Origin: Spirochaetota bacterium
GTDB taxonomy: Bacteria; Spirochaetota; UBA4802; UBA5550
Assembly: GCA_017999915.1 (NCBI GenBank)
Contig: JAGNKX010000004.1
Coordinates: forward strand, 124,001 to 188,000
DNA: 64,000 nt
Direction of reading: 5' to 3'
Made by a program: the position numbers and the translations under genes. Below are positions 24,293 to 43,942 of the stretch, one piece after another. Every line of letters begins with the position of its first letter. Position 1 is the first letter of the stretch. Under the pieces are notes generated by a model. The model was not told the origin of the DNA and did no database searches. It saw nothing but the letters and a program-made list of their open reading frames with translations.

Positions 24293-25513
24293 ATGAATAA
24301 AAAAGTAGTCATCACCGGAATGAATATCATATCCTCTCTCGGCCTGACTCTTGAAGAGAACTGGAAAAACTTACTGGCCGGAACAAGCGGCGCGGGCCCC
24401 ATAACATTGTTTGATCCCTCCGGGTGCGAGACGCGGATCGCCGCGCAGGTGCCGGCTGCGTTCGATGAGTACGCGGCAGCATACTGCAAAAAACGCATTG
24501 CACAGCAGATGACACGGGTTACAGCCATGGCCTTCGTGTGCGCCGCCGACGCGATCGCCGCAAGCAGTGTTGATTTTAAATCACTTGATCGCTCCCGATG
24601 CGCGGTCATCATGGGAGCCGTATCAACAGGGAACTCGTCCGTGGAACATGGAACGACACCACGGAACAGGATCGTCAAAAGCATGAGCAATGCCATCCCT
24701 GCCTGGATTTCCCTTCACTACGGATTGGAGGGCCCGAATTTTACGGTGAACACGGCCTGCGCGTCATCGGCCTATGCCATGGGGCTGGGCTTTGACATGA
24801 TCCGTAACGGGATGGCCGATATGGTAATCACCGGCGGCGCCGATTCGACTGTCAATCCAGAGGAAATCACCGGGTTCAACGAAATGTACGCATTGAGCAC
24901 CCGCAATGACGAGCCGGCCAGGGCGAGCAGGCCCTTCACAAAAGACAGGGATGGTTTTGTCCTGGGGGAAGGGGCGGGAATCATCATCCTGGAGTCGGAG
25001 GAATCAGCCCTCGGAAGAAAAGCGTCGATAGTGGCGGAGCTTGCCGGGTACGCCATTACCAGCGAGGCGTATAACATCATGGCGCCGCGGCAAAACGGCG
25101 AAGGCATGGCCGCAACCATGAAGCTGGCACTCAGGAACAGCGGCATCGGAGCCGGGGAAGTGGATTACATCAATGCCCATGGCACCGCCACGACGCTGAA
25201 CGATCTTTACGAGACCATGGCCATTAAAGCAGTGTTCGGCGAAAGGGCCTGTTGCATTCCAGTGTCATCCTCCAAGTCGATGATTGGCCATACCATAGCC
25301 GCTGCCGGGGCCATCGAAGGCGCCATAACCGCCATGAGCATACGGTACCAGATCGTCACACCGACGATAAATTACGATACCCCGGACCCTGACCTGGACC
25401 TGGATTACGTGCCCAATAATTCGCGGCCCCATAAAATTAATGTTGCAATATCCAATTCTTTTGCTTTTGGTGGTCATAATGCGACAGTTGTATTGAAAGC
25501 ATATCAAGGCTGA
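24293..25513 (+). CDS. FabF-type beta-ketoacyl-ACP synthase
   Basis: A 406-residue ketosynthase, full length for KAS I/II. The Cys-His-His triad is visible: Cys156 in 'NTACASSAYA', His296 in 'NAHGTATT' and His333 in 'SSKSMIGHTIAAAG'. It should catalyse decarboxylative condensation of malonyl-ACP with an acyl primer. It opens a four-gene plus-strand operon (KS, ACP, AT, radical SAM), with the ACP 45 bases downstream. Position and partners suggest a dedicated secondary pathway, rather than housekeeping fatty acid synthesis, since FabG and FabZ are absent from the block. Confidence 0.93.
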   Translation: MNKKVVITGMNIISSLGLTLEENWKNLLAGTSGAGPITLFDPSGCETRIAAQVPAAFDEYAAAYCKKRIAQQMTRVTAMAFVCAADAIAASSVDFKSLDRSRCAVIMGAVSTGNSSVEHGTTPRNRIVKSMSNAIPAWISLHYGLEGPNFTVNTACASSAYAMGLGFDMIRNGMADMVITGGADSTVNPEEITGFNEMYALSTRNDEPARASRPFTKDRDGFVLGEGAGIIILESEESALGRKASIVAELAGYAITSEAYNIMAPRQNGEGMAATMKLALRNSGIGAGEVDYINAHGTATTLNDLYETMAIKAVFGERACCIPVSSSKSMIGHTIAAAGAIEGAITAMSIRYQIVTPTINYDTPDPDLDLDYVPNNSRPHKINVAISNSFAFGGHNATVVLKAYQG

Positions 25514-25558: not shown

Positions 25559-25864
25559 ATGGCGAAGATCGATAGCGGAACGAGGGAAGAAGTCCGCAGA
25601 ATAGTCTACGAATTCTTTTCCGAAGAATGCGAAGCGGCCATCGAAGAATTGAGCGACACTACCAATGTCATCAAGGACCTCGAGGGGGATTCCCTGATGT
25701 TCCTGGAGCTCCTTGAAATTTTCAAGAAGAAGTACGGTCTCAACGTTGAATTGAAGACCGTTGGGAAATACGTGGTCAAGCACCCCGCTGAAACAATCGG
25801 CGCGATCATCACCATGACGCTTCTTATTATCGAACATGAGAACAAAATCGCCGACCTCGATTGA
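25559..25864 (+). CDS. Acyl carrier protein, first
   Basis: A 101-residue acidic helical protein. The phosphopantetheine attachment site is Ser45 in 'DLEGDSLMFLEL', and the length and helix pattern fit a discrete ACP with an extended C-terminal helix ('MTLLIIEHENKIADLD'). The motif has GDS instead of the usual LDS, a pattern seen in carrier proteins of specialised pathways. TCAGGAG precedes the ATG. Its end overlaps the acyltransferase reading frame by 29 bases if that gene begins at 25836. It probably serves the adjacent KS and AT. Confidence 0.87.
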   Translation: MAKIDSGTREEVRRIVYEFFSEECEAAIEELSDTTNVIKDLEGDSLMFLELLEIFKKKYGLNVELKTVGKYVVKHPAETIGAIITMTLLIIEHENKIADLD

Positions 25865-26834
25865 CAGACACCGGATACCTGATTTGGAAAGAAAAAAAAC
25901 CGCAGCCATTTTCCCCGCCTTCGGGTGCAAATACCTCGGTAACGAGCGCGAAATCCTTGATGGGATGTCGAAGGACCTCCACGAGTTGTCGGTGCGCGCG
26001 AATTCGGCCGTCGGCCTGGACATCGGGGAATTCCATGCCTGCAGGGATGGCTGCTTTTCCGATGAACTGCTCTCCCAGTACGCCGTGTACATATACAGCT
26101 GCGCAGTATCCAACAATCTCAAGCGGTTCGGACTTCACACGGACTATGCCGCCGGTTACAGCATGGGATTATACGCTGCGCTCTGCCATGCAGAATCGAT
26201 AACCTTCGAGCAGGGACTCGATCTGATCACCAGGGCATATCAGGGCATCCGGGCAGTCGCTTCGGAGCTCCCTTTTGGAATCGGCGTCATTTCGGGCCTT
26301 ACCCCGGAGGATGTTCGTCCCATTATCGCTGGATTTGACGATGTGGAAATAATCAATATTAACAACAGGCACAATCTCCTTATTTCAGGATATGAAGATA
26401 GCGTGAAGGCGATTCTCGCCATGGCCCATGAGCAGGGGGCGCTGCACCGCAAATATCTGACCTTCCATTCGCCCTATCACTCCCGTTTCATGAACGGCGC
26501 CGCGGAGCAATTGAAGAAATACATATCCTCAATGACGATCTATGATCCGCTATATCCGGTCATTTCGACCGTTGACCAGAGGGAAATGACCACCTGGCAG
26601 GACATTGCGGCTGACCTTGCCGGCAACATAAACAGGAACATAAACTGGCTGGCCACGGTGAACCACATGATCGCGGACGGCGTTGACGTCTTTATAGAAT
26701 GCGGGCCGGGGAAAAGCCTCCACCGCATGGGCAAATTCATCGATGGCGGCTTCGAGATCTATCACCTCCAGAACCTCCAGGACCTGCTCGTTTCAGACAG
26801 GGTGTGCCCGTCGGCCAGTGCGATCAACTATTAA
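25836..26834 (+). CDS. FabD/trans-AT type acyltransferase
   Basis: Acyl-CoA:ACP transferase of up to 332 residues. The nucleophile is Ser109 in 'AAGYSMGLYA' (GHSxG variant) and the catalytic His is His215 in 'HSPYHSRFM'. An Arg in 'LITRAYQG' near 133 occupies the position of the malonyl-carboxylate-binding arginine, which supports malonyl use. The start is uncertain: ATG 25836 has no clear ribosome-binding site and overlaps the ACP; a TTG near 25882 would begin just before the domain ('KKTAAIFPAFG'). The radical SAM gene follows six bases after the stop. The discrete AT would load the ACP in trans. Confidence 0.87.
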   Translation: MRTKSPTSIDRHRIPDLERKKTAAIFPAFGCKYLGNEREILDGMSKDLHELSVRANSAVGLDIGEFHACRDGCFSDELLSQYAVYIYSCAVSNNLKRFGLHTDYAAGYSMGLYAALCHAESITFEQGLDLITRAYQGIRAVASELPFGIGVISGLTPEDVRPIIAGFDDVEIININNRHNLLISGYEDSVKAILAMAHEQGALHRKYLTFHSPYHSRFMNGAAEQLKKYISSMTIYDPLYPVISTVDQREMTTWQDIAADLAGNINRNINWLATVNHMIADGVDVFIECGPGKSLHRMGKFIDGGFEIYHLQNLQDLLVSDRVCPSASAINY

Positions 26835-26839
26835 CCTGA

Positions 26840-28180
26840 ATGAAAATCCTTCTCGTAAATCCGCCGCGTTCGCCCCATAACGGCATCCTTGCCCATGCGC
26901 CGGACGAGGCGAAGCCTTTCATCCATAAGAAACTGATAGGTCCGCCCCTGGGGCTCATCACCATTGCCGCAGCGGCCCGGGAACATGATGTCAGGGTCCT
27001 TGACATGAAAGGCGAATACGACCTTGATCCTGCGGCGCCCGGGATCGAGGCGCTTGTGAATGAATGTCTTTTTCAATACAAGCCGGATATTGTCGGAGTG
27101 ACCTTTATAGCATCTGAATTCCCCTATGGCATCGAGATCTTCAAAGCTGTAAAAAAACACAATCCTGCCATACGCACCGTTGCCGGAGGGCTCCATGCCA
27201 CCGTCTGTACCGCCGATTTCACCGATAATTCCGTTGATGTCGTGGTGCCGGGCCAGTGCGCAGGTATTTTCATGAACCTTGTCAGGGCCATGGAAAAAAA
27301 CATTCCCCTGGACAGGGTGCCGGGGATATATCTGAATACCCAGGACGGCCTCGTGTATACGGGTGACACGGGTAAAACAGGTGATGCCGCCGGCGATGAT
27401 TTCATTTTCCCGGACCGTTCATATTTGAAGCGATGGATATCCACCTACTGCGTCGGCGGTTCTCCCCATCCCAGCACCTATATCTTCACATCATTGGGAT
27501 GTCCGTACCGCTGCTCCTTTTGCTCAATATGGGGCCAGTTCGGCGGCCGGTACCTTCAGCGCGATGTGGAAAGCGTCATTGACGAGCTGAAAATGGTCGA
27601 CGATTACCCGGTGGTGAGGTTCGCCGATGCCAATACCATCGTCAACGACCGGTTCATCGACAGGCTCTTCGACAGGATCAGGGAGGAGGGCATTGAAAAA
27701 TTCTTTATCATGGATATACGCTTCGACACTGCCGTGAAGCATCCAAAGCTCATTGAAAAGCTCGCCCGCGGGGGCCTCAAGGTGGTCATCTGCGGATTCG
27801 AGTCCTTCAAGGAGGAGGAATTACGCCGGTACCGCAAGGAAGCTCCGGCACGGCTCATTGAAGAGGGCATCGGCATTTTCCACGCCAATGGTATCATGGT
27901 GCGGGGAAACTACGTGATACCGGCCGATTACACGGAAGATGACTTCAAGGCAATGGCCGATTACGCAGGCTCCCACAGGGTTGTCTATGCCGGGTACACG
28001 ATACTGACCCCCATGCCAGGAACCGATTATTATGAAACAGTCAGGGACCGCATCATTGATTATGATCTTTCTAAATACAATTTCTTCAACTGCGTGTTTA
28101 AAACGTCCCTTCCGGAAGAGCGCTTCTATGAAAACGTCGGGAAATTGTGGCTGATTAAGGAAGGTTCGGATGTGATTTGA
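26840..28180 (+). CDS. B12-binding-domain radical SAM enzyme 1
   Basis: A 446-residue protein. An N-terminal Rossmann-like cobalamin-binding-type domain ('KILLVNPPRS', 'PPLGLITIAAAA', 'VAGGLHATV') comes first, then a radical SAM TIM barrel with the CX3CX2C motif in 'TSLGCPYRCSFC' near residue 220, followed by 'GFESFKEEELRRYRK' and 'LTPMPGTDYYE'. Enzymes of this architecture methylate unactivated carbons or carry out ring closures in natural-product and lipid pathways. It closes the KS-ACP-AT operon, so its substrate is likely the ACP-bound or released acyl product. Exact reaction unknown. Confidence 0.88.
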   Translation: MKILLVNPPRSPHNGILAHAPDEAKPFIHKKLIGPPLGLITIAAAAREHDVRVLDMKGEYDLDPAAPGIEALVNECLFQYKPDIVGVTFIASEFPYGIEIFKAVKKHNPAIRTVAGGLHATVCTADFTDNSVDVVVPGQCAGIFMNLVRAMEKNIPLDRVPGIYLNTQDGLVYTGDTGKTGDAAGDDFIFPDRSYLKRWISTYCVGGSPHPSTYIFTSLGCPYRCSFCSIWGQFGGRYLQRDVESVIDELKMVDDYPVVRFADANTIVNDRFIDRLFDRIREEGIEKFFIMDIRFDTAVKHPKLIEKLARGGLKVVICGFESFKEEELRRYRKEAPARLIEEGIGIFHANGIMVRGNYVIPADYTEDDFKAMADYAGSHRVVYAGYTILTPMPGTDYYETVRDRIIDYDLSKYNFFNCVFKTSLPEERFYENVGKLWLIKEGSDVI

Positions 28181-28198: not shown

Positions 28199-29341
28199 CT
28201 ATACTGATTTGCCGAAATAGGTCAGGGCGTAACCGGCCTGCATGAATTTGCTCACCTCTGTGACGAAGCTTAAAATAAGGTCGCCATCGACGAGTTTTTC
28301 TTCTCTCAGTATCCTGTCGAGGCAAATGAACACCATGGGAGGGCCGGAATATCCCATCTTCGCTATTTTCGTGTAAAGAGTGCCGGCCGGGATCCCCAGG
28401 GCTGCGCATTCCTCCAGCACGAGGTCCGATATATGCTTGGAGGGAAGGTTGACCTGGAAGAAGCGCAGCCTCGACAGGTCGATATGATAGGCGTCTATCA
28501 TTCTCTTCAGACCCTTGGCGAAAACCGTGCCGTCAGGGTCATGGAAATATGACTGCAGGTGCTGAAACATCTGGGACAGGTGGTGATATCCCCGCTCATA
28601 TTCGTCCCGGGGATTCATCCAGTAGGCGGGACGGCGGTTCCCCATGGAAGACGGCTTTTTCCCTCCCACTGATTCCATGTAGGTGTGGTCGAGGTAAAGC
28701 CCGTTGCCCTTCATATCGCGACTCTCCAGCACCAGGGCGCCGGCTCCGTCGCAGAGGAACCATCGGAGGAAAAGGTCCTCTTTCCTGATCAGGGGCTGGT
28801 TGTAGTATTCCGCCCTGAGCTCCGATGATGATATCCCAGAAGATAGCACCAGGGCGTTGCGGTACCTCCCGTTTCGCAGGAGGTCGCCGGCCAGGAGCAG
28901 GGCCTTGTACGCGGAGGTACAATTGGCGTGGATCGACAGCTCGGCGCACCGCTCGATTCCCAGGGCCTCCTGGATCCGGACCGACGGCGTCGGCATCTGG
29001 TCCATGTGAGCGCTGCCGTACACAATCAGCTCGATATCGCGGCTGTCGATGCCAGCCATGGCCAGGGCCTCGCAGGCAGCCTTTACCGACATGGTGACAT
29101 TGTCCTCGGTGAATTCCCGCGTGACGGGGTCAATGGCGTAGTGATACTGCTCGACATCGAGCATTTCCTTCATGAGGGGGCCCATCCGCTCCATCCATTT
29201 CATCACCCTTGGGGGCGCGTCGGTTATCTTGCCAAGGTACCGGTCTATATCGTCAAAAGGCACAGGGTTCCCGGGAAGAAAGGAGCCGCTCCCTGATATC
29301 TGAACATAAGTTTCCCTCGGATGATTTAAAACGGGATTCAT
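28199..29341 (-). CDS. DarB-like KAS III family protein with altered triad
   Basis: A 380-residue thiolase-fold protein whose N-terminus ('FLPGNPVPFDDIDRYLG...PPRVMKWMERMG') and 'ELIVYGSAHMDQMPTPS' resemble KAS III proteins of dialkylresorcinol and aryl-polyene clusters. The nucleophile Cys141 is present in 'HANCTSAY', as is 'FLCDGAGALVLE'. The His region reads 'FFQVNLPSKH', with no His at the expected place although His303 is close, and the Asn region reads 'MGYSGPPM' instead of 'GNTGSA'. It could be a condensing enzyme with a different triad or an acyltransferase. Last gene of the minus-strand operon with thioesterase and two crotonases. Confidence 0.78.
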   Translation of the reverse strand: MNPVLNHPRETYVQISGSGSFLPGNPVPFDDIDRYLGKITDAPPRVMKWMERMGPLMKEMLDVEQYHYAIDPVTREFTEDNVTMSVKAACEALAMAGIDSRDIELIVYGSAHMDQMPTPSVRIQEALGIERCAELSIHANCTSAYKALLLAGDLLRNGRYRNALVLSSGISSSELRAEYYNQPLIRKEDLFLRWFLCDGAGALVLESRDMKGNGLYLDHTYMESVGGKKPSSMGNRRPAYWMNPRDEYERGYHHLSQMFQHLQSYFHDPDGTVFAKGLKRMIDAYHIDLSRLRFFQVNLPSKHISDLVLEECAALGIPAGTLYTKIAKMGYSGPPMVFICLDRILREEKLVDGDLILSFVTEVSKFMQAGYALTYFGKSV

Positions 29342-29345
29342 GGTT

Positions 29346-30010
29346 CTATCTCATGTAGTCATAAATATAGCTGTTCATTCCCAATCTGTTGTAGCGCCCA
29401 GGAATAAACTTGATAAAATTGATTGCCGCGGTAACAACATCTTTTTTCGGCACGATTTTATCAACAATTTTCCACTGATGGGCCTCCTCCGAGGTAAAGC
29501 TTGATCCTGACAGGACCAGTTCCATGGTCCTGGGAAGGCCGGCCAGGGACGCCATGTTAGATATACCTCCGCATCCGGGAATGAGGCCGAAGGTAGATTC
29601 CGGAAGTCCCAGGACCGAGCCGTTTCCGCAGATCCGGCAATGGCAAAACAGCGCCAGCTCAAGGGCTGAACCGAGGCAGACGCCCCTTATGGCGGCAACG
29701 ACTGGTATGGTAAGGTTCTCGAAAAAAGTAAAGGATCTGAGATTATCGCTAAGTATGGATGATCTGTCCTGATCGAGGTCGGATTTTCCATGACCTTTAA
29801 TGGCGCTGATAAGGTCATCCAGGTCGGCGCCGGAAGAAAAATGACGGCCCTCGCCATATATGACAATACCGGTTACGTCAGACAGGGGGATCACTTCCTC
29901 GGTAAGACGCCTCAATTCAGAAAAAAAAAGCGCGTCATACTGTTGGACGGAGGATCATTGAGGACAAGATGACCGATGGTATCTTCGATATGCCATTCCG
30001 GATTATTCAT
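29346..30010 (-). CDS. Enoyl-CoA hydratase/isomerase family, frameshifted (first crotonase)
   Basis: The crotonase begins at ATG 30010 ('MNNPEWHIEDTIGHLVLNDPPSN'), overlapping the upstream crotonase gene by eight bases. After 'MTR' the frame meets nine Ts (9 As at 29921-29929 on the plus strand) and then hits TGA; with one more or two fewer Ts it reads on as 'FFSELRRLTEEV' into an intact domain of 189 residues. Oxyanion-hole and acid regions look intact: 'GRHFSSGADLDDL', 'CLGSALELALF' and 'LPESTFGLIPGCGG'. This is a real frameshift, a sequencing error, or a slippage site. It lies between the second crotonase and the KAS III gene. Confidence 0.75.
29921..29929 (-). other. Nine-base homopolymer at the crotonase frameshift
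   Basis: A run of nine As on the plus strand (nine Ts in the coding strand) lies exactly where the first crotonase changes frame. Runs of this length are prone to polymerase slippage in transcription and to indels in sequencing and assembly. Confidence 0.85.
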
Positions 30011-30734
30011 GGACCTTCACCGCGAGACGGCAGAACATTTTCGTTTCCTCTTCCATGGCCTGCTGGGCGGTCATGGTGCGTGAATTGTTAAGGGCTCTGA
30101 CAATGGAGCGAATCACTTCGACGGGCCTCTGGGCAACCATTTTTTTCATCAGGGATAGTGAAAATTGAAGCGCTTCCTTCGGCGGTGTCACATGGTCCAC
30201 GAGTCCGATCTCCTTTGCCCTGGAGGCATTGACAATATCGCCTCCCAGGATCATCTCCATCGCCTTCCCGTGGCCGATCATGCCGGGAAGACGTACGGTG
30301 CCGCCCATGCCAGGCATGATGGCGTGATTGACCTCCGGAAAGGCCAGAAGTGAGTTCTTGGCGCATATCCTCATGTGGCAGGCAAGGGCTATCTCGAGGC
30401 CGCCGCCGAAACAGGCGCCTTCGATTGCTGCAATGGTCGGCACCGGTATCGCTTCAAAATCGGCAAGAAGCTCCTTGCCGTCATGAATGGAAGACATGAG
30501 GAGGGCCTCATCCGCTGCTATTTCACGGAGCCTGTCAAGGTCGGCCCCGGCTGAAAAATGCCTTCCTTTCCCGATTACGATGATCCCTTTCAAAGTATCA
30601 TCTTCGATCCACCGGATCAACGATCCAGGATCGACAAATACGGCATCGGTAAGACGATTTTGTGGCGGATTATCAATGGTCATAATGCCGATGGAGTCCT
30701 GAATTTCCCATGTTACGAGCCGAGATTGTTCCAT
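30003..30734 (-). CDS. Enoyl-CoA hydratase/isomerase family (second crotonase)
   Basis: A complete 243-residue crotonase. Characteristic parts are 'GKGRHFSAGADLDRL' (oxyanion hole), 'GACFGGGLEIALACHMRI' and 'FPEVNHAIMPGMGGTVRLP'; both Glu positions used for hydratase activity (the E of GGGLE and the E of FPEV) are present. It should hydrate or dehydrate acyl-thioesters, or isomerise double bonds. It lies between the thioesterase (eight bases upstream) and the frameshifted crotonase (overlap), clearly in one operon. Confidence 0.92.
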   Translation of the reverse strand: MEQSRLVTWEIQDSIGIMTIDNPPQNRLTDAVFVDPGSLIRWIEDDTLKGIIVIGKGRHFSAGADLDRLREIAADEALLMSSIHDGKELLADFEAIPVPTIAAIEGACFGGGLEIALACHMRICAKNSLLAFPEVNHAIMPGMGGTVRLPGMIGHGKAMEMILGGDIVNASRAKEIGLVDHVTPPKEALQFSLSLMKKMVAQRPVEVIRSIVRALNNSRTMTAQQAMEEETKMFCRLAVKVHE

Positions 30735-30742
30735 TTATGACA

Positions 30743-31126
30743 TTATCTCCCGGTTATGAAAAATTCCGGAATATCGTGGGGAACACGGTCACTGTCGACC
30801 AGTAATGTCTTGATGTTCCCCCGGGCAATGATCTCACCCGCGGCCGCGTTACGGATAACATGGGTGAAAACAAGATAGGGCGGCGCGTTGTGCATATCCG
30901 TCTCCACGACCAGCTCGTCGAAGACCCTGGATTCTTTTGAATACCGGATATTTGCCTCTGTCACGACCAGGATGAGGCCATTGCTCTTAAAGTATTCGAA
31001 AAGGTCCCTGGACCTGAGAATCTCCCAGCGGGCCTGTTCAAAATAATTAAGATAGACCGCGTTGTTGACATGGCCGAATGAGTCGATCTCATAGCCGCGG
31101 ACTGTTATTGGATATTCATATGACAT
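30743..31126 (-). CDS. Hotdog-fold (4HBT) acyl-thioesterase
   Basis: A 127-residue single hotdog domain of the 4-hydroxybenzoyl-CoA thioesterase type. The active-site region 'EIDSFGHVNNAVYLNYFEQARWE' has the expected Asp and His-Val-Asn-Asn motif. It would hydrolyse an acyl-CoA or acyl-ACP, releasing the product of the pathway. First gene of the minus-strand four-gene operon, divergent from the dehydrogenase gene. Confidence 0.9.
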   Translation of the reverse strand: MSYEYPITVRGYEIDSFGHVNNAVYLNYFEQARWEILRSRDLFEYFKSNGLILVVTEANIRYSKESRVFDELVVETDMHNAPPYLVFTHVIRNAAAGEIIARGNIKTLLVDSDRVPHDIPEFFITGR

Positions 31127-31306: not shown

Positions 31307-32443
31307 ATGAAAGCAGCGGAAAACAGGACAATCGGCGTTATAGGCAGCGGCCGCATGGGGACCGATATCGCCTATTTCCTCAACGAGTTGAATTTCAATC
31401 TTGTGTGGATTTGCATAGACGAGGAAGAAAAATTTCGCCTCAATAAGTCGTTTAAGATAAAAACAGACCGTCTATCAAGAAACGGCATTATCAGCCATGA
31501 TGAGCTCCGTAAAAGAACAGACGCGATGGTGATTTCCTGCTCCCTGCGGGATATCTCCTCCTGCGATATTATCATTGAAGCCATAGACGAGAATGCCGCT
31601 GCCAAGGTGAAGCTCTATACGGCCCTGGAGCCGTTTGCCCGTGATAAGGCCATAGTCGTCACCAATACTTCATCGTTCAGGCCTTCCAGCCTGGTCCGGG
31701 AGGGTATGCTGAAACACCGATTCGCAGGGCTCCATTTTTTCTTCCCTGTGAAAATGAAAAAAATAGTTGAACTCATTACAACTGAATATACGGATGATGT
31801 CAGCATTGCCGAATTGCGCGATTTTATCAGCGTCATGGGTAAGTTTTGCCTCGAGATGCCCGAGAATGAAGGCTTCGTGCTTAACAGGCTGTTCCTTGAC
31901 TGCCAGGCCCAGGCGGTGCGCCTTCACCGGGACGGCAATATCGACATGAGAGCGATTGATGCTATCGTAAAGGGATCCATATTCCCAAGGGGGGTTTTCG
32001 AGTTCTTCGATGATGTCGGGATAGATGTGATGCGTCAATCTGTGATCAATTATACCAGCCAATTGAATAACAGGGATTTTTATAATCCGTTGCTGGATTT
32101 CCTTGCAGATCTCTTGTCAAGGAACAGGCTTGGCCGCAAGTCCGGATCAGGCTGTTACGACTATCCTGTCGACATTGCATCACTTGACTTGCCCGGTGAG
32201 AAAAATAAGGAAGAAATAATATCGCTACTGAGGGCCATTTATATCAATTCAGTCTTCAAGGTCCTTGAAAAAAAAATCTGGTCCGTCGATGACATGGAAT
32301 TCGCCGTTAAAGAATATATGGACATGGAAGAGGGCCCCCTGGCGCTGGCTGAAAAAATCGGTCATGGCGCGATCAGGGAGATTTTGAAGCGCCACTACGA
32401 TACAACCGGCTTTGAAGCCCACAGGCCGTCATCATTGTTATGA
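31307..32443 (+). CDS. FadB-type 3-hydroxyacyl-CoA dehydrogenase
   Basis: A 378-residue NAD-dependent dehydrogenase. The Rossmann motif 'IGVIGSGRMGTDIAYF' starts at residue 9; the catalytic His region is 'GLHFFFPVKMKKIVELI' near residues 143-159, with 'NEGFVLNRLF' as the Asn/dimer region. After the first C-terminal 3HCDH domain there is a second 3HCDH-like domain ('IYINSVFKVLEKKIWSVDDMEFAV'), as in the dehydrogenase part of FadB. It interconverts 3-hydroxyacyl and 3-ketoacyl thioesters. Since FabG is absent, it may supply ketoreduction for the pathway. First gene of a long plus-strand operon. Confidence 0.9.
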   Translation: MKAAENRTIGVIGSGRMGTDIAYFLNELNFNLVWICIDEEEKFRLNKSFKIKTDRLSRNGIISHDELRKRTDAMVISCSLRDISSCDIIIEAIDENAAAKVKLYTALEPFARDKAIVVTNTSSFRPSSLVREGMLKHRFAGLHFFFPVKMKKIVELITTEYTDDVSIAELRDFISVMGKFCLEMPENEGFVLNRLFLDCQAQAVRLHRDGNIDMRAIDAIVKGSIFPRGVFEFFDDVGIDVMRQSVINYTSQLNNRDFYNPLLDFLADLLSRNRLGRKSGSGCYDYPVDIASLDLPGEKNKEEIISLLRAIYINSVFKVLEKKIWSVDDMEFAVKEYMDMEEGPLALAEKIGHGAIREILKRHYDTTGFEAHRPSSLL

Positions 32444-32477: not shown

Positions 32478-33896
32478 ATGAAAAAAGTACTGCTGATAAA
32501 TACCAACACAGAGAAAAAACCGTACCCGGTGCCTCCCCTGGGACTCTGCATCATCGCCGGGGTCCTTGAAAGGAATTACCGTGTAAAAATTTATGACGGC
32601 GCCTTTGATGAAGGGAAAAACCTGCACCGGACGATAAATGATTTCATGCCGGATTATATCGGCGTATCGATACGCAATATAGATGACATGGATATCATCA
32701 ATCCCACCAACTATATTCAATCAATTCTGGAGCAATTCATCAGACCGATCCGGAAGGCCACCCGGGCGCCTCTGATACTGGGCGGAAGCGCCTTTAGCAT
32801 CTTACCCGATTATCTGATGACATATTTTGACGCCGATTTCGGTGTCATCGGGGAAGGTGAGACCGTGTTGCCGAGGATCCTTCACTGCCTTGATAATGGC
32901 GATGACCCCTCGCGGTTACCCGTCGTAATAAGCCGCGATAAAAGGATCTTTTCCGGTGAAAATAATGATGTTGCCATGGCGGGCATTCCCTATTCCGAGA
33001 TCGACCAAAGGATCGATTACGGGCCCTACAGGGCGCGGAGCTCCTACCCGGTACAGACGAAGCGGGGATGCGCTCACCGGTGCATCTATTGCACCTATAA
33101 CTGCATAGAGGGATACCGCTACAGGACCAGGCCTCCCGAACGGGTGGCGGAGGAAATCAGGGAGGCTTCGGAGCGCCTGGGACAGGTGACCTTTGAATTC
33201 GTAGATTCCACATTCAACGATCCGCCGGGCCATGGCGAGGCCATTTGCCGCGAAATAGTACGCCGCGGCCTCAGCGTGCGTCTCCGGACCATGGGTATAA
33301 ATCCGTGCAATGCTTCCCGGGAGCTATTTGACCTGATGAGCCGCGCCGGTTTCACACAGATCGACTGTACTCCCGATTCCGCGTCTCCCTCGATGCTTGC
33401 TGGACTGGGCAAGAACTTTACTCTGGCTGATTTACAGAATACGGCACGTATCATTCGTGACGCTGACATGCCCACCATGTGGTTCTTCATTTTTGGAGGT
33501 CCGGGCGAAACGGAGAATACGATCGCAGAGTCTTTTGATTTTATCGATAGCTTCATCAGGCCACGGGACATGGTCCACATGACCTGCGGTATGAGAATAT
33601 ACCCCGGCACGGGCCTGCACAGACGCGCTATTGAAGATGGAATCATCGGCCCTGACGATGACCTTGCTCCAACACGATTCTATGTTTCACCGGCCATCGG
33701 TAAGGAACGCCTCTTTGACATAGTCAAAACAGCGTCGATGTCACGTCCAAACTGCGTTCCTGTCATGGAATCCAGCCCGCCACCGGAAATGATGCGCGAA
33801 GCGATGAAAATGAGGGAGGAGGGCGCCCTTGCAGAGCCGATGTTCAGGACCCTCCTCAGGCTTCGGTACCGGAAGTTCGGGAAAGAAATGGACTGA
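32478..33896 (+). CDS. B12-binding-domain radical SAM enzyme 2
   Basis: A 472-residue protein with an N-terminal cobalamin-binding-type Rossmann domain ('VLLINTNTE', 'PPLGLCIIAGVLE', 'LILGGSAFSILP', 'GVIGEGE') and a radical SAM domain with the CX3CX2C motif in 'KRGCAHRCIYCTYN' near residues 195-208. The C-terminal region carries 'FFIFGGPGETENT'. BchE-like in layout. Located 34 bases after the dehydrogenase gene. Its reaction is not predictable, but methylation or cyclisation of a lipid or polyketide-like substrate would suit the neighbourhood. Confidence 0.88.
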   Translation: MKKVLLINTNTEKKPYPVPPLGLCIIAGVLERNYRVKIYDGAFDEGKNLHRTINDFMPDYIGVSIRNIDDMDIINPTNYIQSILEQFIRPIRKATRAPLILGGSAFSILPDYLMTYFDADFGVIGEGETVLPRILHCLDNGDDPSRLPVVISRDKRIFSGENNDVAMAGIPYSEIDQRIDYGPYRARSSYPVQTKRGCAHRCIYCTYNCIEGYRYRTRPPERVAEEIREASERLGQVTFEFVDSTFNDPPGHGEAICREIVRRGLSVRLRTMGINPCNASRELFDLMSRAGFTQIDCTPDSASPSMLAGLGKNFTLADLQNTARIIRDADMPTMWFFIFGGPGETENTIAESFDFIDSFIRPRDMVHMTCGMRIYPGTGLHRRAIEDGIIGPDDDLAPTRFYVSPAIGKERLFDIVKTASMSRPNCVPVMESSPPPEMMREAMKMREEGALAEPMFRTLLRLRYRKFGKEMD

Positions 33897-33969: not shown

Positions 33970-35460
33970 ATGAAAAATATGGAATATACAATGAGAATAT
34001 CTATCCTCTGTTTTGTATCCGCCCTTATATTGATTATAAGCTATCCAGTCGAAGCGAAGAAAGCCCCTTTTGACGTCAGCAGGGGGACTGTCAAGATAAT
34101 TCGCACGGCAATACGGCCTGATTACAACCTGCCCTGGAAAATGAAAGAGCCTGAAACCGCTGTCGGTTCCGGTGCGATCATCAACGGGCACATGATTTTG
34201 ACCAACGCCCATGTCGTATCCGATGCTACATACATACAGGTACGAAAGGAGATAGACCCGGAGCTCTATGACGCAGAAATCATGTTCATTGCCCATGACT
34301 GCGACCTGGCCCTGCTCAGGGTCAAGGACCCGCGCTTTTATGCAAATACCCAGGTCCTTGAGCTGGGAGAAATTCCAGAATTAAGGTCGATGGTCACCAC
34401 CTACGGATACCCGATGGGAGGCAGCCGCATTTCCATAACGGCGGGCGTGACGTCGCGGATTGAGATAGGCGAATATTCCCACATGGGGAGCGTCTCTTTC
34501 ATCATGATCCAGACGGACGCGGCCATCAATCCCGGAAACAGCGGCGGCCCCGTCATACAGAACAACAGGATCGTGGGTGTAGCCTTCCAGGCCAGCGCCA
34601 ACTCGGACAATATCGGCTACATGATACCTGTTCCGATAATCAAGCATTTCCTCGAAGACATAAAAGACGGCAGCTATGACGGATTTCCCATGCTGGGAGT
34701 CTTCACCGAGACCCTGGAGAATATCAGCTACCGGCGCTACCTCGGAATGAAGGATGACCAGAGCGGGGTGCTGGTTTCCGTGACGATCCCGGGAGGCGGC
34801 GCCGAGAAAGCCCTGCGCCGCGGAGACGTGATACTGTCCATCGATTCCGTTCCGATCGCCAATGACGGAACGATCCGGTTCATGAAAGGGAGGATCTTTT
34901 ATTCGTACCTCATAGACCTCAAGCAGATCAATGAGACTGTGCGCCTCGCGGTCCTTAGAAACGGAAACGTCATCAAGGTGAGCTATCCCCTCAGGACATA
35001 TCCGTCAAGGATATCCTGGTTCAATGAATTTGAAAAACTGCCCCGCTACTGCGTCGTGGCCGGCCTGATTTTTCAGCCCCTTTCCAAGGAATATCTCATG
35101 ACCTGGAACAAGTGGTGGCATACGGCCGACCGGCGCCTGCTCTATTACTATACCTATCACATATCGGACAACCTTTTCCCCGAGAGGCGCGAATTCGTGG
35201 TGCTCAACAGGGTGCTGCCGGACCCGGCCAACACCTATCTTTCGGATATTCACGACAAGGTGGTCGATTCCGTCAATGGCGTCAAGATCAGGTCCCTTAG
35301 CGACATTGCCGAGGCTTTCGCAAAACCGGCCGGCGCTTTCCACGTCATTCAGATAGATGGCACCACCTGTCCGCTGGTTATCAAATCATCCGAGGTCGAT
35401 GGCGCGAACAGTCGCATTAAGAATAAATATGACATCCCAAGGCTTATGAGACTGCAATAA
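33970..35460 (+). CDS. Secreted trypsin-like serine protease (HtrA-like, with PDZ-like regions)
   Basis: A 496-residue exported protease. A signal peptide (about residues 8-29, ending 'SYPVEA') precedes a trypsin_2 domain with an intact triad: His81 ('LTNAHVV'), Asp112 ('HDCDLALLRV') and Ser191 ('NPGNSGGPV'). A PDZ-like segment follows ('GVLVSVTIPGGGAEKALRRGDVILSIDS') with another at the C-terminus ('DKVVDSVNGVKIRSLSDIAEAF'). It fits a periplasmic DegP/HtrA-type protease. The following gene is a degenerate paralogue of the same length; the two lie 19 bases apart inside the acyl cluster. Confidence 0.9.
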   Translation: MKNMEYTMRISILCFVSALILIISYPVEAKKAPFDVSRGTVKIIRTAIRPDYNLPWKMKEPETAVGSGAIINGHMILTNAHVVSDATYIQVRKEIDPELYDAEIMFIAHDCDLALLRVKDPRFYANTQVLELGEIPELRSMVTTYGYPMGGSRISITAGVTSRIEIGEYSHMGSVSFIMIQTDAAINPGNSGGPVIQNNRIVGVAFQASANSDNIGYMIPVPIIKHFLEDIKDGSYDGFPMLGVFTETLENISYRRYLGMKDDQSGVLVSVTIPGGGAEKALRRGDVILSIDSVPIANDGTIRFMKGRIFYSYLIDLKQINETVRLAVLRNGNVIKVSYPLRTYPSRISWFNEFEKLPRYCVVAGLIFQPLSKEYLMTWNKWWHTADRRLLYYYTYHISDNLFPERREFVVLNRVLPDPANTYLSDIHDKVVDSVNGVKIRSLSDIAEAFAKPAGAFHVIQIDGTTCPLVIKSSEVDGANSRIKNKYDIPRLMRLQ

Positions 35461-35479
35461 CAGACGGAGAATTCCAATA

Positions 35480-36943
35480 ATGAAATTTCGTGTTATCATA
35501 ACTATTCTGTCAGCTCTGTGCCTGGGCGTTCCAGTAATGGCCCAAACTATCGAAGACAGCGTGGTAAATATCCTGGTTACATCGCAAAAGCGTGATTATG
35601 CGTCGCCATGGCAGAAGGGCGAAGTCGTCCGATCGAGCATAACAGGCTGCGTCATCGAAGGCAATCGCATCCTCACGGCCTCATATTCCTTGACCGATAA
35701 CATCCTCATAGAGGTCATGAAAAAGGGCGAAAGCCGCAAGTATACCGCTTCGATAGAGATAAAGGATTATCAAAGCGGTGTGGCCCTGCTCCGCGTTGAG
35801 GATACGTCTTTTTTCAATGGCCTCAGGGCCGTCACGTTCCTGCCTTCAGGAGCAATGAACGGCAGGAGCGCCCGGGTCTATAAATGGGACTCCCTGAGCA
35901 GCCTCAAGGAATACCTGGCGGAGCTCACCAAGACATCGGTACGATTCTATGATCCGAGCTGCGGCGTCCTCATGCACCAGTTTTCGACCAGCATGAACGA
36001 GGGGGGCAACGGCGAACCGGTATTTATAGATTCCAGGCTGGCCGGTATAGCCACCGGTCTCAACGCCGAGTCCAAAACGCTTTTCGTGATAAGCTCCGAG
36101 ATGGTTAAGCGCATGATCAAGGACGCGTCAGACGGATCCTACGAGGGGCTCCCCTTTTTCTGGATCGACAGCGTCGAACTGCAGGGGGATATAAACCTGA
36201 GGGAATACTACGGAGTCGGCGCCGGTGAGGGCGGTGTGCTTGTTACCGGTATTCCTGGCATCAGCAGCGGAAGCGATGTGCTCAAAAAGGACGATATCAT
36301 CCTTGCTATCGACGGCCATGTGTTGGACGATAAGGGTAATTATGATTCGCCCTATGGTAAGTTGTACTATTACGGACTGATACAAATGGATCATTTTGCC
36401 GGCGAAGAAGTGACTATGACGATTTTAAGAAATAAGAAAAGAATACCGGTGAGGTTCAAGCTCAAACAGATCCCGGATGAATGCTGCGGCATACCCCTGA
36501 TATCATATGACTCGGAACCGCTCTATTACATTTTCGGCGGCCTTGTCTTGATGGAGCTCAATGCCGGTTATATGGAGTCATTCGGACAGGACTGGAAGCA
36601 GAAAGCGGACAAACGCCTCCTGTATTATTTCGACAACATGAAAAAAATCGCCGAGAGCGGACTTGACGCGAGAGTTATCATTCTCAGCCGTGTACTTCCG
36701 GATACGATAAATAAGGGATATCAATTCCAAAAAGATCTGGTGCTGATAAAGTTCAACGGTTCCTCGGTGAAAAACCTTTCTGGCCTGAAAGCGGCCATTG
36801 ACGCGTCACGGGATCGTTTTATTGTCCTTGATTTTGCCGGTGAAACGTCGATCGTTATTGACCGGGAACTGGCTGTTCATAACGCGCAAAACCTGTTTAA
36901 GACTTATAATATTAATCGGTCTCATAATATTCGCGGCAATTGA
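35480..36943 (+). CDS. Pseudoprotease paralogue of the upstream HtrA-like gene
   Basis: A 487-residue exported protein with the same domain order as the gene before it: signal peptide (ending 'VPVMA'), trypsin_2 fold and PDZ-like segments ('GVLVTGIPGISSGSDVLKKDDIILAIDG'). All three catalytic positions differ: His to Tyr69 ('LTASYSLTD'), Asp to Gly100 ('QSGVALLRV') and Ser to Asn177 ('EGGNGEPV'). It cannot be a classical serine protease and probably acts as a regulator, scaffold or substrate-binding partner of the active copy. The open frame of normal length shows it is maintained, not simply decaying. GGAG precedes the ATG. Confidence 0.87.
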   Translation: MKFRVIITILSALCLGVPVMAQTIEDSVVNILVTSQKRDYASPWQKGEVVRSSITGCVIEGNRILTASYSLTDNILIEVMKKGESRKYTASIEIKDYQSGVALLRVEDTSFFNGLRAVTFLPSGAMNGRSARVYKWDSLSSLKEYLAELTKTSVRFYDPSCGVLMHQFSTSMNEGGNGEPVFIDSRLAGIATGLNAESKTLFVISSEMVKRMIKDASDGSYEGLPFFWIDSVELQGDINLREYYGVGAGEGGVLVTGIPGISSGSDVLKKDDIILAIDGHVLDDKGNYDSPYGKLYYYGLIQMDHFAGEEVTMTILRNKKRIPVRFKLKQIPDECCGIPLISYDSEPLYYIFGGLVLMELNAGYMESFGQDWKQKADKRLLYYFDNMKKIAESGLDARVIILSRVLPDTINKGYQFQKDLVLIKFNGSSVKNLSGLKAAIDASRDRFIVLDFAGETSIVIDRELAVHNAQNLFKTYNINRSHNIRGN

Positions 36944-38100: not shown

Positions 38101-38565
38101 ATGAAAGAAAAAGACGCTGCCGTTGATTACAAGGAGCACCAGCTCATACTCTATGTCGAAAAAAAGGACGGCTCCTACGGGCCGGTGAAAACAGGCTCGT
38201 ACATTTCAAAGAACTACATCGATGATTTCTGGTACAAGCGCCACAACCTTGAGAAGGAGCTCCTGGAAAAGGTCCGTCGTGGCGAGATGAGCCCGGTGGC
38301 ATATTACATGACCCTCGAGGAATTGACCCCTTCGGAGCTGGCCGCCAGGGTAAAGCTGAGCGCGCGCAAGGTGAAAAAGCACATGGACCCCGGACTTTTC
38401 GGCACTGCCACGCTGGAGCAGCTGAAACGATACTGCGGGGTATTCAACGTCCCGCTGGCGAACATGGTGCAGGCCATCGTGACGGATAAAAAAAACTTGA
38501 AAGTTTATGAAGAAAAAACTGATAATCCATTCTTCTCGATCTTGAAAATCGCTGCGGGGAAATAA
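38101..38565 (+). CDS. Small protein with XRE-like helix-turn-helix
   Basis: A 154-residue protein of no recognised family. Residues about 75-125 ('LTPSELAARVKLSARKVKKHM...LKRYCGVFNVPLANMVQ') resemble an XRE/Cro-like helix-turn-helix. The N-terminal part is charged and beta-rich. GGGGG precedes the ATG, and the stop overlaps the next start by one base (TAATG), so it is coupled to the BtrH-like gene. It could be a transcription factor or a protein-binding adaptor. Confidence 0.6.
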   Translation: MKEKDAAVDYKEHQLILYVEKKDGSYGPVKTGSYISKNYIDDFWYKRHNLEKELLEKVRRGEMSPVAYYMTLEELTPSELAARVKLSARKVKKHMDPGLFGTATLEQLKRYCGVFNVPLANMVQAIVTDKKNLKVYEEKTDNPFFSILKIAAGK

Positions 38566-39569
38566 TGACATTCCAGCATAAAATGGCGGCCCATTGCGAG
38601 TCGGGGACAGTGACGGCCCTTCTGAATCATGGCGGCCTTGATATATCGGAACCCCTTGTCTTCGGCATATCCGCCGGCATATTTTTTGGATATTTCGAGT
38701 CAAAGAAGTTTCCGTTCCCGACCTTTGTCGTGCGCAACAGGCCGGGACAGATCCGTACCGGCATGGCCCGGCGCATCGGGGTATCCTTCAGGGAGCAGAG
38801 ATTCAGGAACCCGGAAAAAGGAGAACGGGAGCTCGACAGGCTTCTGTCGGAGAAAATACCGGTGGCCTGCCAGACCGACTTTTTCTACATGAATTACCTG
38901 CCCAACCATGTGCGGGTCCATATCAACGTGCATTTCATCACGGTCGTGGAAAGGCGAGGGGATACATATATGGTAAGCGATTGCTATTCCCCGACCCTGG
39001 CTGAGCTTGACCGTGATTCTTTCATGAAGGCCCGTTTTGCCGGCGGCAGTTTCTCCCCGAAGGGTTTCCTTTTCCATCCTGTTTCTATACCGTCCGAAAT
39101 CGATTACCGCACCGCCATCTGGAAGGGGATCAGGAGCGCCGCGTTCAACATGGTGAAGCTGCCGATTCCTTTTATCGGCGTCAAGGGGATCAGGCTCTTT
39201 GCCAAAAAGGTGGTGGACTGGCCCAGGCTCGCCAGGGACACGGAGCATCTTTCCCATGAAATAATGAAAATAAACATATTTCTTGAAGATCAGGGTACCG
39301 GCGGGGCCGGGTTCCGTTTCATGTACGCGACCTTTCTGCGCGAGGCATCCGAGCTGCTTAACGATCCGGACCTTCTGGAAATGTCAAAACGCATCATGGA
39401 GATCGGTGACCGATGGCGCGAGATATCGCTGTTTTCCGCAAGAATCGGCAAACGACGCGACTTCAGCCCGGAACGGCTGAAGGAATTGAGCGGCATGATC
39501 TACGACAGGGCCGATGCGGAGGAGCGTTTTTTCAGGGATATGCTGAAGCTCTGCAAATCAAAGAAATGA
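38565..39569 (+). CDS. BtrH-like acyl-ACP acyltransferase
   Basis: A 334-residue protein. The N-terminus 'FQHKMAAHCESGTVTALLNHGG...PLVFGISAGIFFGYF' matches the BtrH_N domain (family of butirosin BtrH), with Cys11 in 'HCES', and the remainder corresponds to the DUF4872-type C-terminal part. In butirosin biosynthesis BtrH transfers an aminoacyl side chain from an acyl carrier protein to an aminoglycoside. Here an ACP gene follows eight bases downstream, which strongly supports transfer of an ACP-bound acyl group to an unknown acceptor. Confidence 0.82.
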   Translation: MTFQHKMAAHCESGTVTALLNHGGLDISEPLVFGISAGIFFGYFESKKFPFPTFVVRNRPGQIRTGMARRIGVSFREQRFRNPEKGERELDRLLSEKIPVACQTDFFYMNYLPNHVRVHINVHFITVVERRGDTYMVSDCYSPTLAELDRDSFMKARFAGGSFSPKGFLFHPVSIPSEIDYRTAIWKGIRSAAFNMVKLPIPFIGVKGIRLFAKKVVDWPRLARDTEHLSHEIMKINIFLEDQGTGGAGFRFMYATFLREASELLNDPDLLEMSKRIMEIGDRWREISLFSARIGKRRDFSPERLKELSGMIYDRADAEERFFRDMLKLCKSKK

Positions 39570-39576
39570 ATACCAT

Positions 39577-39867
39577 ATGAGAGGACCGAATTATAATATG
39601 ACTGAAAACAGCCTTAACGACGAAATAAAGCTGCTTATAATCAAAACGCTTAATATTGAGGATGTGCAACCTGATGAAGTGGTCGATGAAGATCCGCTGT
39701 TCGGCGAGGGAAACGTTCTTGGCCTGGATTCAATCGATGCGCTGGAGATCGTCATGGCCCTTCAGGAAAAATACGGCGTGCGGATCGACGACAAGAACCA
39801 GTCGCGCTTTATCCTGCGATCCATCGCCACCATCGCCGATTTCATAGAAAAAAACAGGACGAGATAG
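39577..39867 (+). CDS. Acyl carrier protein, second
   Basis: An acidic 96-residue protein (89 if the ATG at 39598 is used). The phosphopantetheinylated Ser52 lies in 'LGLDSIDALEIVMAL', the classical ACP motif. It is the last plus-strand gene of the operon, immediately after the BtrH-like acyltransferase, and is convergent with radical SAM enzyme 3. The pairing suggests that this carrier delivers the acyl group used by the BtrH-like enzyme, distinct from the first ACP beside the KS and AT. Confidence 0.9.
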   Translation: MRGPNYNMTENSLNDEIKLLIIKTLNIEDVQPDEVVDEDPLFGEGNVLGLDSIDALEIVMALQEKYGVRIDDKNQSRFILRSIATIADFIEKNRTR

Positions 39868-39873
39868 GCTTTT

Positions 39874-41244
39874 CTACGGCCCAACGTAAAATTCATCCTT
39901 TGAAACGTCGACGGCCCCGCGAAGCTTGGCCTGCAAAACAAGGGCGAAGATGGTTTTATGGATCCTGTCACCGTTGAATTTTGACAAATAAAAACCCGTG
40001 CGCCCGAGTATCTCTTTCCATGAATATCCCGCGTCACCGACATTTTTAAGGGCGTCGAATATTTCCTCATCGCGAATGGCGGGATTTCGGAAATTTATCA
40101 GTTTGCCGTCATCAAGGGTTCCTTCTTTTTTCAACCTTTGGTAGAGGCGCGTTCCCGGAAGCGCCTTCACCGGGAATATCACCGGTACTATCTTCATTTC
40201 ATTGCAGAATTCAACGGTCCTGTAATAGGTGTCGATATCATCATCCTCATAGCCGATCACAAACCAGCCTGACACGAGGATCCCCTGGTCCTGGATGAAG
40301 CGGATGGAATCCTTCATGGAAGCCAATACATCTGACGAGGAAGGAGCTCCCATTTTTCTGATGGCTCCGGACTTCGCGAGTGTTGACGGATTAATTGATT
40401 CCATTCCGATGGCGGCGTAAATCAGCCCTGATTCGGCCGCCTTTTTGATGACGGCCCTACCTCTCTCATCCAATGCCGCATCGAGGTTGGCCTGCCCGGT
40501 CCAAAATCTTTTTTTCTTTAATCCTGAAATCGCGTCGTATAGATCGCAATAATAATCATACACGGGCGGCTTGCCGAAAACCGAATCATCGAGGATGTAG
40601 TAGTAATTCTTGAACGATTCAATCTCACGCACCACATCTGACACAGGCTTCATCCTGTAACCGGGACCGAATATTTCCGTGACCGAACAGAAGTCGCAGT
40701 TCACGGGACAGCCTCGAACGGCATACACCGTATCAAAAACATATTTTTTTCTATAAAGGGAGCGGATCGGGACGATGGTTTTTGTAAGATCCGGGTAGGT
40801 GTTGATCTTATGGATAGAGTATGGTCCCGGATCAAAGACAGCAGGCGAACAAACGTAAAAATTCCTGAGTTTCTTTTTTTCAGCGTCTGAAACGATAACG
40901 GGCCATAACTCCTCCGCTTCACCTACCGCCACGGCGTCAGCGTGCTCGATGGCGCGGAACGGCACCATTGACGGCTGCGGACCTCCGAGTACGACAGGAA
41001 TTCCCCGCCGCCGGAATTCATCGGCGAGTTCATAGGCCCTGTTTTCCGCCGTGTATCTGAAGCTTATTCCCACCAGGTCGGCGGGCTCGTCGAAGCGCAC
41101 ATCGTCTTCCCATAACAGATCGACAAATGAATAATCATGTCCCGGGGCGGATCCGGCAAGTATCGGCAAAGACAAGGGCATGAACGGGTCGTTTTGACGA
41201 AGGGGATCGGTCAGGGATGCGGCGAGGATCAGTTTGATTTTCAT
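39874..41244 (-). CDS. B12-binding-domain radical SAM enzyme 3
   Basis: About 457 residues from the ATG at 41244; a longer TTG frame starts at 41280. Cobalamin-binding-type N-domain ('LVGISFRYTAENR', 'VVLGGPQPSMVP', 'VAVGEAEELWP') and radical SAM domain with the CX3CX2C motif in 'VRGCPVNCDFC'; later 'GMESINPSTLAKSG' and 'SGWFVIGYEDDD'. Third enzyme of this architecture in the 24-43 kb block. It is encoded opposite to the ACP/BtrH operon, only seven bases from its end. Confidence 0.87.
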   Translation of the reverse strand: MKIKLILAASLTDPLRQNDPFMPLSLPILAGSAPGHDYSFVDLLWEDDVRFDEPADLVGISFRYTAENRAYELADEFRRRGIPVVLGGPQPSMVPFRAIEHADAVAVGEAEELWPVIVSDAEKKKLRNFYVCSPAVFDPGPYSIHKINTYPDLTKTIVPIRSLYRKKYVFDTVYAVRGCPVNCDFCSVTEIFGPGYRMKPVSDVVREIESFKNYYYILDDSVFGKPPVYDYYCDLYDAISGLKKKRFWTGQANLDAALDERGRAVIKKAAESGLIYAAIGMESINPSTLAKSGAIRKMGAPSSSDVLASMKDSIRFIQDQGILVSGWFVIGYEDDDIDTYYRTVEFCNEMKIVPVIFPVKALPGTRLYQRLKKEGTLDDGKLINFRNPAIRDEEIFDALKNVGDAGYSWKEILGRTGFYLSKFNGDRIHKTIFALVLQAKLRGAVDVSKDEFYVGP

Positions 41245-41364
41245 GTATGCAATATTCTCAGCAATTGTGATTAAATGCAATTAATATTTGGTGACCACGC
41301 GCCGGTTTTTACCACGGATCAAAAAAGTAATTGAAAAATAACAATTTCCCCCGACACTATCATC

Positions 41365-42839: not shown

Positions 42840-43694
42840 TTAGTTTTTTCCGAAACCATAGTAGGCATGCTGTTGCGTGAAACCGGCAAACCCGTATTTT
42901 TCCGCGGTCTTTTCGAATTTTTTCCAGTTATCCCCGTAATGATAAAGGTAAAGTTTTTTCTTTATTTCAGCCGGGAGCTGGTTGAGCTCATCAATGCCGG
43001 CATGGACTCCGCCATTGAAAAACTGGCAGTCATGAAAGATAGCTTCGAAATTGAACTCCCTGTCATAATCGACCACCAGAGAAGGATCGTAGCGCGTATC
43101 GCTGCTGAAGAAGATACGATCGTCTATAATCACAGCGCAGCTCCAGAAAGAGCTCTGCCAGTCCGGTGCCGTGTCGGGAATATGCTTGGTGCGAACCATC
43201 TTGATATCGATGCTCCCGACTTTCACGGCGAAGGTATCCCGGGCATATTTAGGGATCTTGTCTGGCCTGATCACCTCGAAGAAGTCATCGAACGTTAGCA
43301 CCTTGTGGGCCGTTCTCTCATTATGGCCGAGCCCGCCTCGCAGCGATGTTTCCCAGAGTAGATGCTGAAATGTTTCATTGATGACCATCACCGGCCTGCG
43401 CTTCGCGAAGTATCGTCCCATGATCGCAAGCTCTTCGAGACCGCCGATATGATCGGCATGGGAATGGGTGACGAGAATGTTACGTACATCGGTTATCGTC
43501 AGGCCGACGTCATGCATGGCCTGGGGGCATCGATGACCGCAATCGATGAGAAGATGGTCTTTACCCTTGATAACGACGAGAATGGTATGGTATTGCTCCT
43601 TGGTGAAAGCGCTGCCGACGCCGAGAAAAAAAATATCCAGGCCGCCTTTATTGGCAAGGGACAGCTTGCGCTTCCCAAGGGGTTTAATCTTCAT
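42840..43694 (-). CDS. Metallo-beta-lactamase-fold hydrolase
   Basis: About 284 residues from ATG 43694 ('MKIKPLGKRKLSLANKGG'); a longer frame reaches 43883 but its extra N-terminus looks untypical, although it contains a hydrophobic stretch that could be a signal anchor. The zinc-binding signature 'THSHADHIGG' is clear, with downstream 'FSSDTRYD' and 'FHDCQF' contributing ligands. Related to the glyoxalase II/RNase Z superfamily. In trans-AT polyketide clusters an MBL hydrolase (PksB type) often acts as a thioesterase-like editor, so a similar role is possible here, but it is not demonstrated. Confidence 0.82.
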   Translation of the reverse strand: MKIKPLGKRKLSLANKGGLDIFFLGVGSAFTKEQYHTILVVIKGKDHLLIDCGHRCPQAMHDVGLTITDVRNILVTHSHADHIGGLEELAIMGRYFAKRRPVMVINETFQHLLWETSLRGGLGHNERTAHKVLTFDDFFEVIRPDKIPKYARDTFAVKVGSIDIKMVRTKHIPDTAPDWQSSFWSCAVIIDDRIFFSSDTRYDPSLVVDYDREFNFEAIFHDCQFFNGGVHAGIDELNQLPAEIKKKLYLYHYGDNWKKFEKTAEKYGFAGFTQQHAYYGFGKN

Positions 43695-43942
43695 ACGACG
43701 CCTCAATGATTCGATAATGGAACATTCATGGTGATGTGTTGCTGCAAAATATCGAGTTGGAAAATAAAAAGTCAAGACTATTAACAGGCATATAATATTT
43801 TTTCGGCCGTTCATGATTACATTTAATCGGTTTGACATGATTGATCTTGCCGGTATTATTATTGACATTATGTCAGCTTGCATAATTAGATGTGAAGGCG
43901 GTCATCCGGCGGATGATTAATATCTGTAATAAAAAGGTCATT

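Follow-up and report, generated by a model that had tools for sequence, protein, structure and literature searches.

Among the closest described systems, BtrH of butirosin biosynthesis has a known role in ACP-dependent acyl transfer, as given in the available part of the source (PMC10318531). The lincosamide condensing enzymes CcbD/LmbD use a Cys-His-Glu triad and an amino-sugar acceptor, and the available text describes a carrier-protein-dependent ping-pong reaction of CcbD in which the chain is loaded onto the Cys while the His and Glu activate the acceptor amine (PMC12945683). For CtaG of the closthioamide pathway, the accessible account proposes that hydroxybenzoate is transferred from one carrier protein to a tri-beta-alanine held on another, with formation of an amide (PMC6772006). 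The Azoarcus dar cluster harbors darE (a 'BtrH-like peptidase'), darD (a conserved protein), an ACP and a ketosynthase beside darA/darB; in the available portion of that paper darH denotes a different gene (PMC3949708). The role inferred for the DarH family in flexirubin and arcuflavin clusters is esterification of an aryl polyene with the 2,5-dialkylresorcinol made by DarA/DarB. In azinomycin biosynthesis, AziU3 works with a small partner protein, AziU2, with which it has been crystallised, and their chemistry is an elimination on a sulfated intermediate rather than acyl transfer.

The locus compared here with these systems lies in a stretch of 64,000 nucleotides from a Spirochaetota bacterium (assembly GCA_017999915.1, contig JAGNKX010000004.1, positions 124,001 to 188,000), called the window hereafter, whose features are collected in Table 1. 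The DarH ORF (334 aa, ATG start) begins with MTFQHKMAAHCES, which places Cys11 in the motif HCES as described in the earlier note, and its product lies above the Pfam cut-offs for DUF4872 (147 bits, cut-off 28) and BtrH_N (130.3 bits, cut-off 29.7) as well as that of the NCBIfam family DarH_acyl NF053550 (313.9–314.4 bits, cut-off 300). ORFs and profile scores thus confirm a BtrH_N-type protein followed by an ACP. The proposed BtrH_N/DUF4872 membership holds, but among curated families the closest is DarH, known from dialkylresorcinol/flexirubin clusters, and not butirosin BtrH, with which the protein shares the BtrH_N domain and, presumably, the described role. A butirosin-like or aminoglycoside pathway was rejected, as no such genes were found among the window genes scanned. 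The ACP (ACP2), with the motif GLDSIDALE, matches Pfam PP-binding (30.5 bits, cut-off 20.8) and begins close behind DarH after a gap of 7 bases (39570–39576), not the eight counted earlier; its true start may, to judge from the sequence, be the ATG at 39598 behind AGAGGA. It was correctly said to be separate from the carrier protein of the KS operon, which has an ACP1 of its own without any NCBIfam match at 1e-5. The pairing of DarH and ACP2 is real although incomplete, since a DarG-like gene directly in front overlaps the start of DarH by one base (TAATG), which makes the unit, with its DarG-like protein, DarH and ACP, a triad instead of a pair. The DarG-like protein remains below its family cut-off and aligns at 21–23% identity with DarG of the other DarH type (clade A, see below). 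Its residues 64–126 adopt an XRE-like helix-turn-helix fold in the predicted model (pLDDT 80), which matches SinR with Z 10.9 and an rmsd of 1.5 over 62 residues; the 50 matches listed for this model do not include the 7wuw/8gs1 chains, an absence with no bearing on likeness to AziU2 either way. Around the triad, relatives of the adjoining rSAM2 (47–53% identity) adjoin the KSIII operon in two other loci (L122 and L123), and both tandem DegP-like proteins are kept beside the module within the genus.

Table 1. Features of the window discussed in the text, with the evidence for each (bit scores against family cut-offs)
Feature	Position	Strand	Evidence or remark
FabF-type KS	24293-25513	+	profile match; kept with clade B
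ACP1	25559-25864	+	clusters with ACP-like L047 661-963; kept with clade B
AT	25836-26834	+	profile match; kept with clade B
rSAM1, B12-binding radical SAM	26840-28180	+	profile matches
Divergent KSIII, distantly StlD/DarB-like	28199-29341	-	PRK06816 110.6 bits, cut-off 450
Crotonase-type proteins (two)	29346-29915, 30003-30734	-	profile matches
YbgC/FadM-type thioesterase	30743-31126	-	profile match
3-hydroxyacyl-CoA dehydrogenase-like	31307-32443	+	profile match
rSAM_ladder-type radical SAM	32478-33896	+	335.5 bits, cut-off 360
Two tandem DegP-like proteins	33970-36943	+	second: PDZ matches, no trypsin match (Pfam)
DarG-like protein (154 aa)	38101-38565	+	NF053536 53.1 bits, cut-off 70
DarH-type (BtrH_N+DUF4872) putative acyltransferase, clade B; Cys11, His123, Asp139	38565-39569	+	profiles, alignment, tree, model
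ACP2, acyl carrier protein dedicated to the module	39577-39867	+	PRK09184 78 bits, cut-off 70
rSAM2, B12-binding radical SAM protein adjoining the module	39874-41280	-	Pfam Radical_SAM 38.4 bits
Metallo-beta-lactamase-fold protein	42840-43883	-	Anti-Pycsar Apyc1 131.4 bits, cut-off 50

The DarH model, obtained with AlphaFold2 on 32 sequences and compared by Foldseek and VIA-align, reached a pLDDT of 92.3 and a pTM of 0.90, and its top structural matches are AziU3, CtaG and CcbD. CtaG aligns with Z 24.5 (rmsd 3.2 over 290 residues) in spite of only 16% identity, AziU3 with Z 24.0 and CcbD with Z 22.6. His123 and Asp139 of DarH align structurally with His128 and Asp144 of CtaG, and on our reading of the model Cys11/His123/Asp139 would correspond to C11/H128/D144 of CtaG, the residues of CtaG being those of the variants named in the PDB titles and the numbering offset of 6 being our own reading. 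Among 75 non-identical relatives, His123 and Asp139 are kept in 75/75 each and Cys11 in 72/75 (the exceptions are two gaps and one Ser). Neither outcome that the earlier note had named as refuting, a placement outside BtrH_N/DUF4872 or a loss of the active residues in homologues, was observed. By analogy with these enzymes, the best reading is that DarH would act as a Cys acyl-enzyme taking its chain from the ACP; the ACP-dependent acyl transfer put forward in the earlier note is supported by the family, the fold, the conserved Cys/His/Asp and the dedicated ACP. On the other hand, the matches with C39 peptidase domains and with phytochelatin synthase are mainly to the N-terminal half of DarH (Z ~13–15), and this C39/papain-like fold would suit a hydrolase or a release factor, which would set the chain bound to ACP2 free or close it into a ring instead of transferring it. 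Such a role appears improbable, given that the full-length matches with Z >22 are CtaG, AziU3 and CcbD, not peptidases, and that the KS operon has a separate thioesterase.

Scanning the window protein against the genome contigs gave 42 loci (L057–L098), and with the window 43 window-type loci (clade B), found in Spirochaetes, in Bacteroidales/Bacteroidetes and in one Fibrobacterota MAG. One of them (L077) carries an Alphaproteobacteria label, although its DarH hardly differs from that of a Bacteroidales MAG (L074), and probably represents a mislabelled or contaminated MAG. In the search for co-occurring pairs that had been suggested, an ACP was found behind DarH in the same orientation, at most 269 nt away as measured between profile envelopes, in 41 of the 43 loci; in the two exceptions the contig ends 70 nt on (L082) or the ACP lies 2 kb off (L088). 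DarG is directly upstream in 42/43, the remaining locus (L098) being truncated by the contig end. The DarH-ACP pairing is not chance. DarG also precedes each of the 11 DarH copies of the other type that were compared, and none of these has an ACP directly downstream on the same strand. More distant BtrH_N proteins of other Spirochaetes genomes (L052–L054) had neither a DarG nor an ACP match around them in the stretch examined.

Further proteins recur around the Bacteroidales clade-B modules. A 602-aa protein (L060 5364–7172) and a 128-aa protein (L066 2347–2733) are found repeatedly in these clusters, without a match in NCBIfam or Pfam. Additionally, a Sulfotransfer_3 protein (L074 11287–12372 and relatives; a cluster spanning 26 loci) stands soon after ACP2 in many of the loci, and a sulfated product is possible. 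The recurrence of this protein near the ACP, together with the structural closeness of AziU3, equal to that of CtaG, and its crystallisation with a small partner, could be taken to mean that DarG-DarH functions as AziU2-AziU3 does, by elimination on a sulfated intermediate without any acyl transfer. This is highly improbable, however, because DarH retains the Cys of the transferases and no sulfotransferase was recognised among the window genes scanned.

The DarH tree (quick method, SH-aLRT supports) comprises a clade A (15 rows, support 93), with the copies of the type found on contig C17 and those linked to DarB, and a clade B (43 rows, support 87), of the window type; the tree does not include three further copies (in G097, G135 and G162), which were assigned to clade B by their identity to the window protein (88, 81 and 59%, respectively). 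The window protein passes the DarH family cut-off and shares with DarH a DarG-like gene directly upstream, but differs from the DarH of dialkylresorcinol/flexirubin clusters in its sister clade, its ACP directly downstream, the lack of a DarB over cut-off and its other KSIII operon. The same genome (G000) contains a second DarH (369.5 bits, contig C17), at a locus with a DarG over cut-off, KS-type proteins, an ACP and ABC transporter genes, near which are found a KS-CLF fusion and reductase-, dehydratase- and LolA-like genes; by analogy, this locus may be said to recall the Azoarcus dar cluster. An aromatic lyase lies ~34 kb away from this second locus (G000 contig C17, L003 and L136), with the motif FHG compared with SHS in FlxA. 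One genus member (G107) has clade-A copies and lacks both clade B and KSIII. Clade A tracks the flexirubin lyase FlxA: in a sample of the order Bacteroidales (n = 247), 27 genomes have both, 8 clade A only, 19 FlxA only and 193 neither, where clades were called by identity (at least 54% vs at most 39%) and one copy at 27% (G347) was counted as A. The separate searches of this order were treated as a single sample, since their genome identifiers agree.

The KS operon of the window was found, whole or partial, in the Bacteroidales stretches around KSIII, which is 60–71% identical there. KSIII retains the active Cys, while the His and Asn of DarB are replaced by Asn and Tyr, respectively, in 27/27 rows (the window and 26 orthologues); by its score as well as by the missing Cys-His-Asn set it lies outside the StlD/DarB ketosynthases. 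These replacements make an ordinary decarboxylative condensation doubtful, and from its sequence KSIII may be an enzyme that condenses without decarboxylation or one that transfers acyl groups. A profile search revealed no DarB over cut-off in the window's genome (best 107.3 of 450 bits), which makes a classical dialkylresorcinol an unlikely acceptor; the dialkylresorcinol pathway was rejected for the home genome. Such a DarB is also lacking in 35 of the 45 genomes that carry a related DarH. These observations bear on the classical DarH role, in which the aryl polyene would be esterified with the DarA/DarB product: it is suggested by the DarH score, by the DarG-like neighbour and by the Azoarcus cluster with its BtrH-like gene and ACP near darA/darB (as far as described in PMC3949708), but the distribution of DarB, the separate clade of the window DarH and the residues lost from KSIII all speak against it, and there is little chance that it applies here.

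Clade B and KSIII occur together. A search of 48 genomes, 47 of them with clade B, recovered KSIII in 39; it is missing from 8 of the 47. Two samples chosen independently of the clade-B/KSIII question gave the same picture: in the window's own phylum, KSIII is present in 8/296 genomes, all 8 among the 10 with clade B, and in the Bacteroidales order sample, 11 of 247 genomes have both, one has clade B only (G324), two have KSIII only (G471 and G575) and 233 have neither (Fisher p 2e-16, uncorrected for relatedness between genomes). KSIII was found in 2/25 of the order-sample genomes with only other DarH copies. On single contigs, the two lie ~9 kb apart in five genomes (G000, G135, G097, G122 and G092) and ~23–41 kb apart in four (G325, G330, G301 and G529), and in G074 the FabF-, ACP1- and AT-like genes are followed directly by ACP-DarG-DarH. 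It was considered whether clade B simply follows FlxA, an explanation weakened by the counts: FlxA over cut-off is found in 8 of 12 clade-B genomes, but 38 of 46 FlxA genomes are without clade B. The 27 genomes with both FlxA and clade A include 8 with clade B and KSIII, none with clade B only, two with KSIII only and 17 with neither. Among the titles listed from one literature collection, none concerned a DarH-KSIII association, and no paper on DUF4872 was found there.

Concerning the chemical setting, FlxA over cut-off is present in 34 of the 45 related genomes, and an FlxY-type ligase (703.6 bits, cut-off 520) and an FlxA lyase (853.5 bits, cut-off 700) are found within clade-B loci; 4 of the 12 clade-B genomes of the order sample are without FlxA over cut-off. 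The spirochaetes searched showed no FlxA over cut-off and only aromatic lyases of unclear substrate (in the window's family, one of 314.5 bits). A KS-CLF fusion is present in all 7 genomes searched of this family, including G092 and G122, in which no clade-A copy was found. The distant genomes G044, G053, G067 and G074 gave only partial KS matches and generic aromatic lyases. Given the lack of FlxA over cut-off in the spirochaetes searched, an aryl polyene is best supported for Bacteroidales and only probable for the window's genome, which has the KS-CLF fusion.

It is proposed that DarG-DarH-ACP2 constitutes a dedicated acyl-transfer module serving the pathway of the KS operon (24.3–33.9 kb). 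Holo-ACP2 would carry the chain as a thioester on the Ser of GLDSIDALE, Cys11 of DarH would receive it from ACP2, the presumed donor, to form an acyl-enzyme, and His123/Asp139 would activate an O- or N-nucleophile of the acceptor, giving an ester or an amide, in line with the reaction described for CcbD and the one put forward for CtaG. The findings point to a pigment-like product of the module and the KS operon together, and we consider the chances about even that through the module an aryl polyene and the KS-operon product become linked, yielding a conjugate that resembles flexirubin but lacks the classical dialkylresorcinol, the identities of chain and acceptor being presumptive. A more specific version, in which the KSIII/crotonase/radical-SAM operon replaces DarA/DarB, the clade-B module couples its moiety to the aryl polyene and clades A and B provide two joining steps of one pathway, is advanced more tentatively. 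The acceptor could also come from outside the KS operon, with ACP2 serving to transfer the KS-operon chain onto a sugar, a lipid head group, a peptide or another amine. The acceptors of BtrH, CcbD and CtaG are amines in every case according to the available accounts (PMC10318531, PMC12945683, PMC6772006), and the tracking of KSIII by clade B would fit the KS-operon chain as donor; nevertheless, genes for sugars, lipids or peptides do not regularly accompany the clade-B loci compared, and in Bacteroidales FlxA and FlxY types are repeatedly found close to clade B, which makes an outside acceptor rather unlikely. The interpretation in the earlier note is partly supported as a whole: its tie between the module and the product of the cluster is upheld by co-occurrence and partial linkage, whereas nothing found points to the sugar, lipid or peptide that it had suggested as acceptor.

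DarH-type modules exist without a DarB over cut-off, and a 'DarH' annotation should therefore not imply dialkylresorcinol production. The association ties a carrier-dependent Cys acyltransferase, as DarH is read here, in a testable way to an uncharacterised KSIII/radical-SAM operon common to two phyla, and the clade-B genomes are places to seek an unknown aryl-polyene conjugate. If the more specific version of the proposal is true, it would mean an undescribed class of composite pigments or lipids in Spirochaetes and Bacteroidales of anaerobic habitats.
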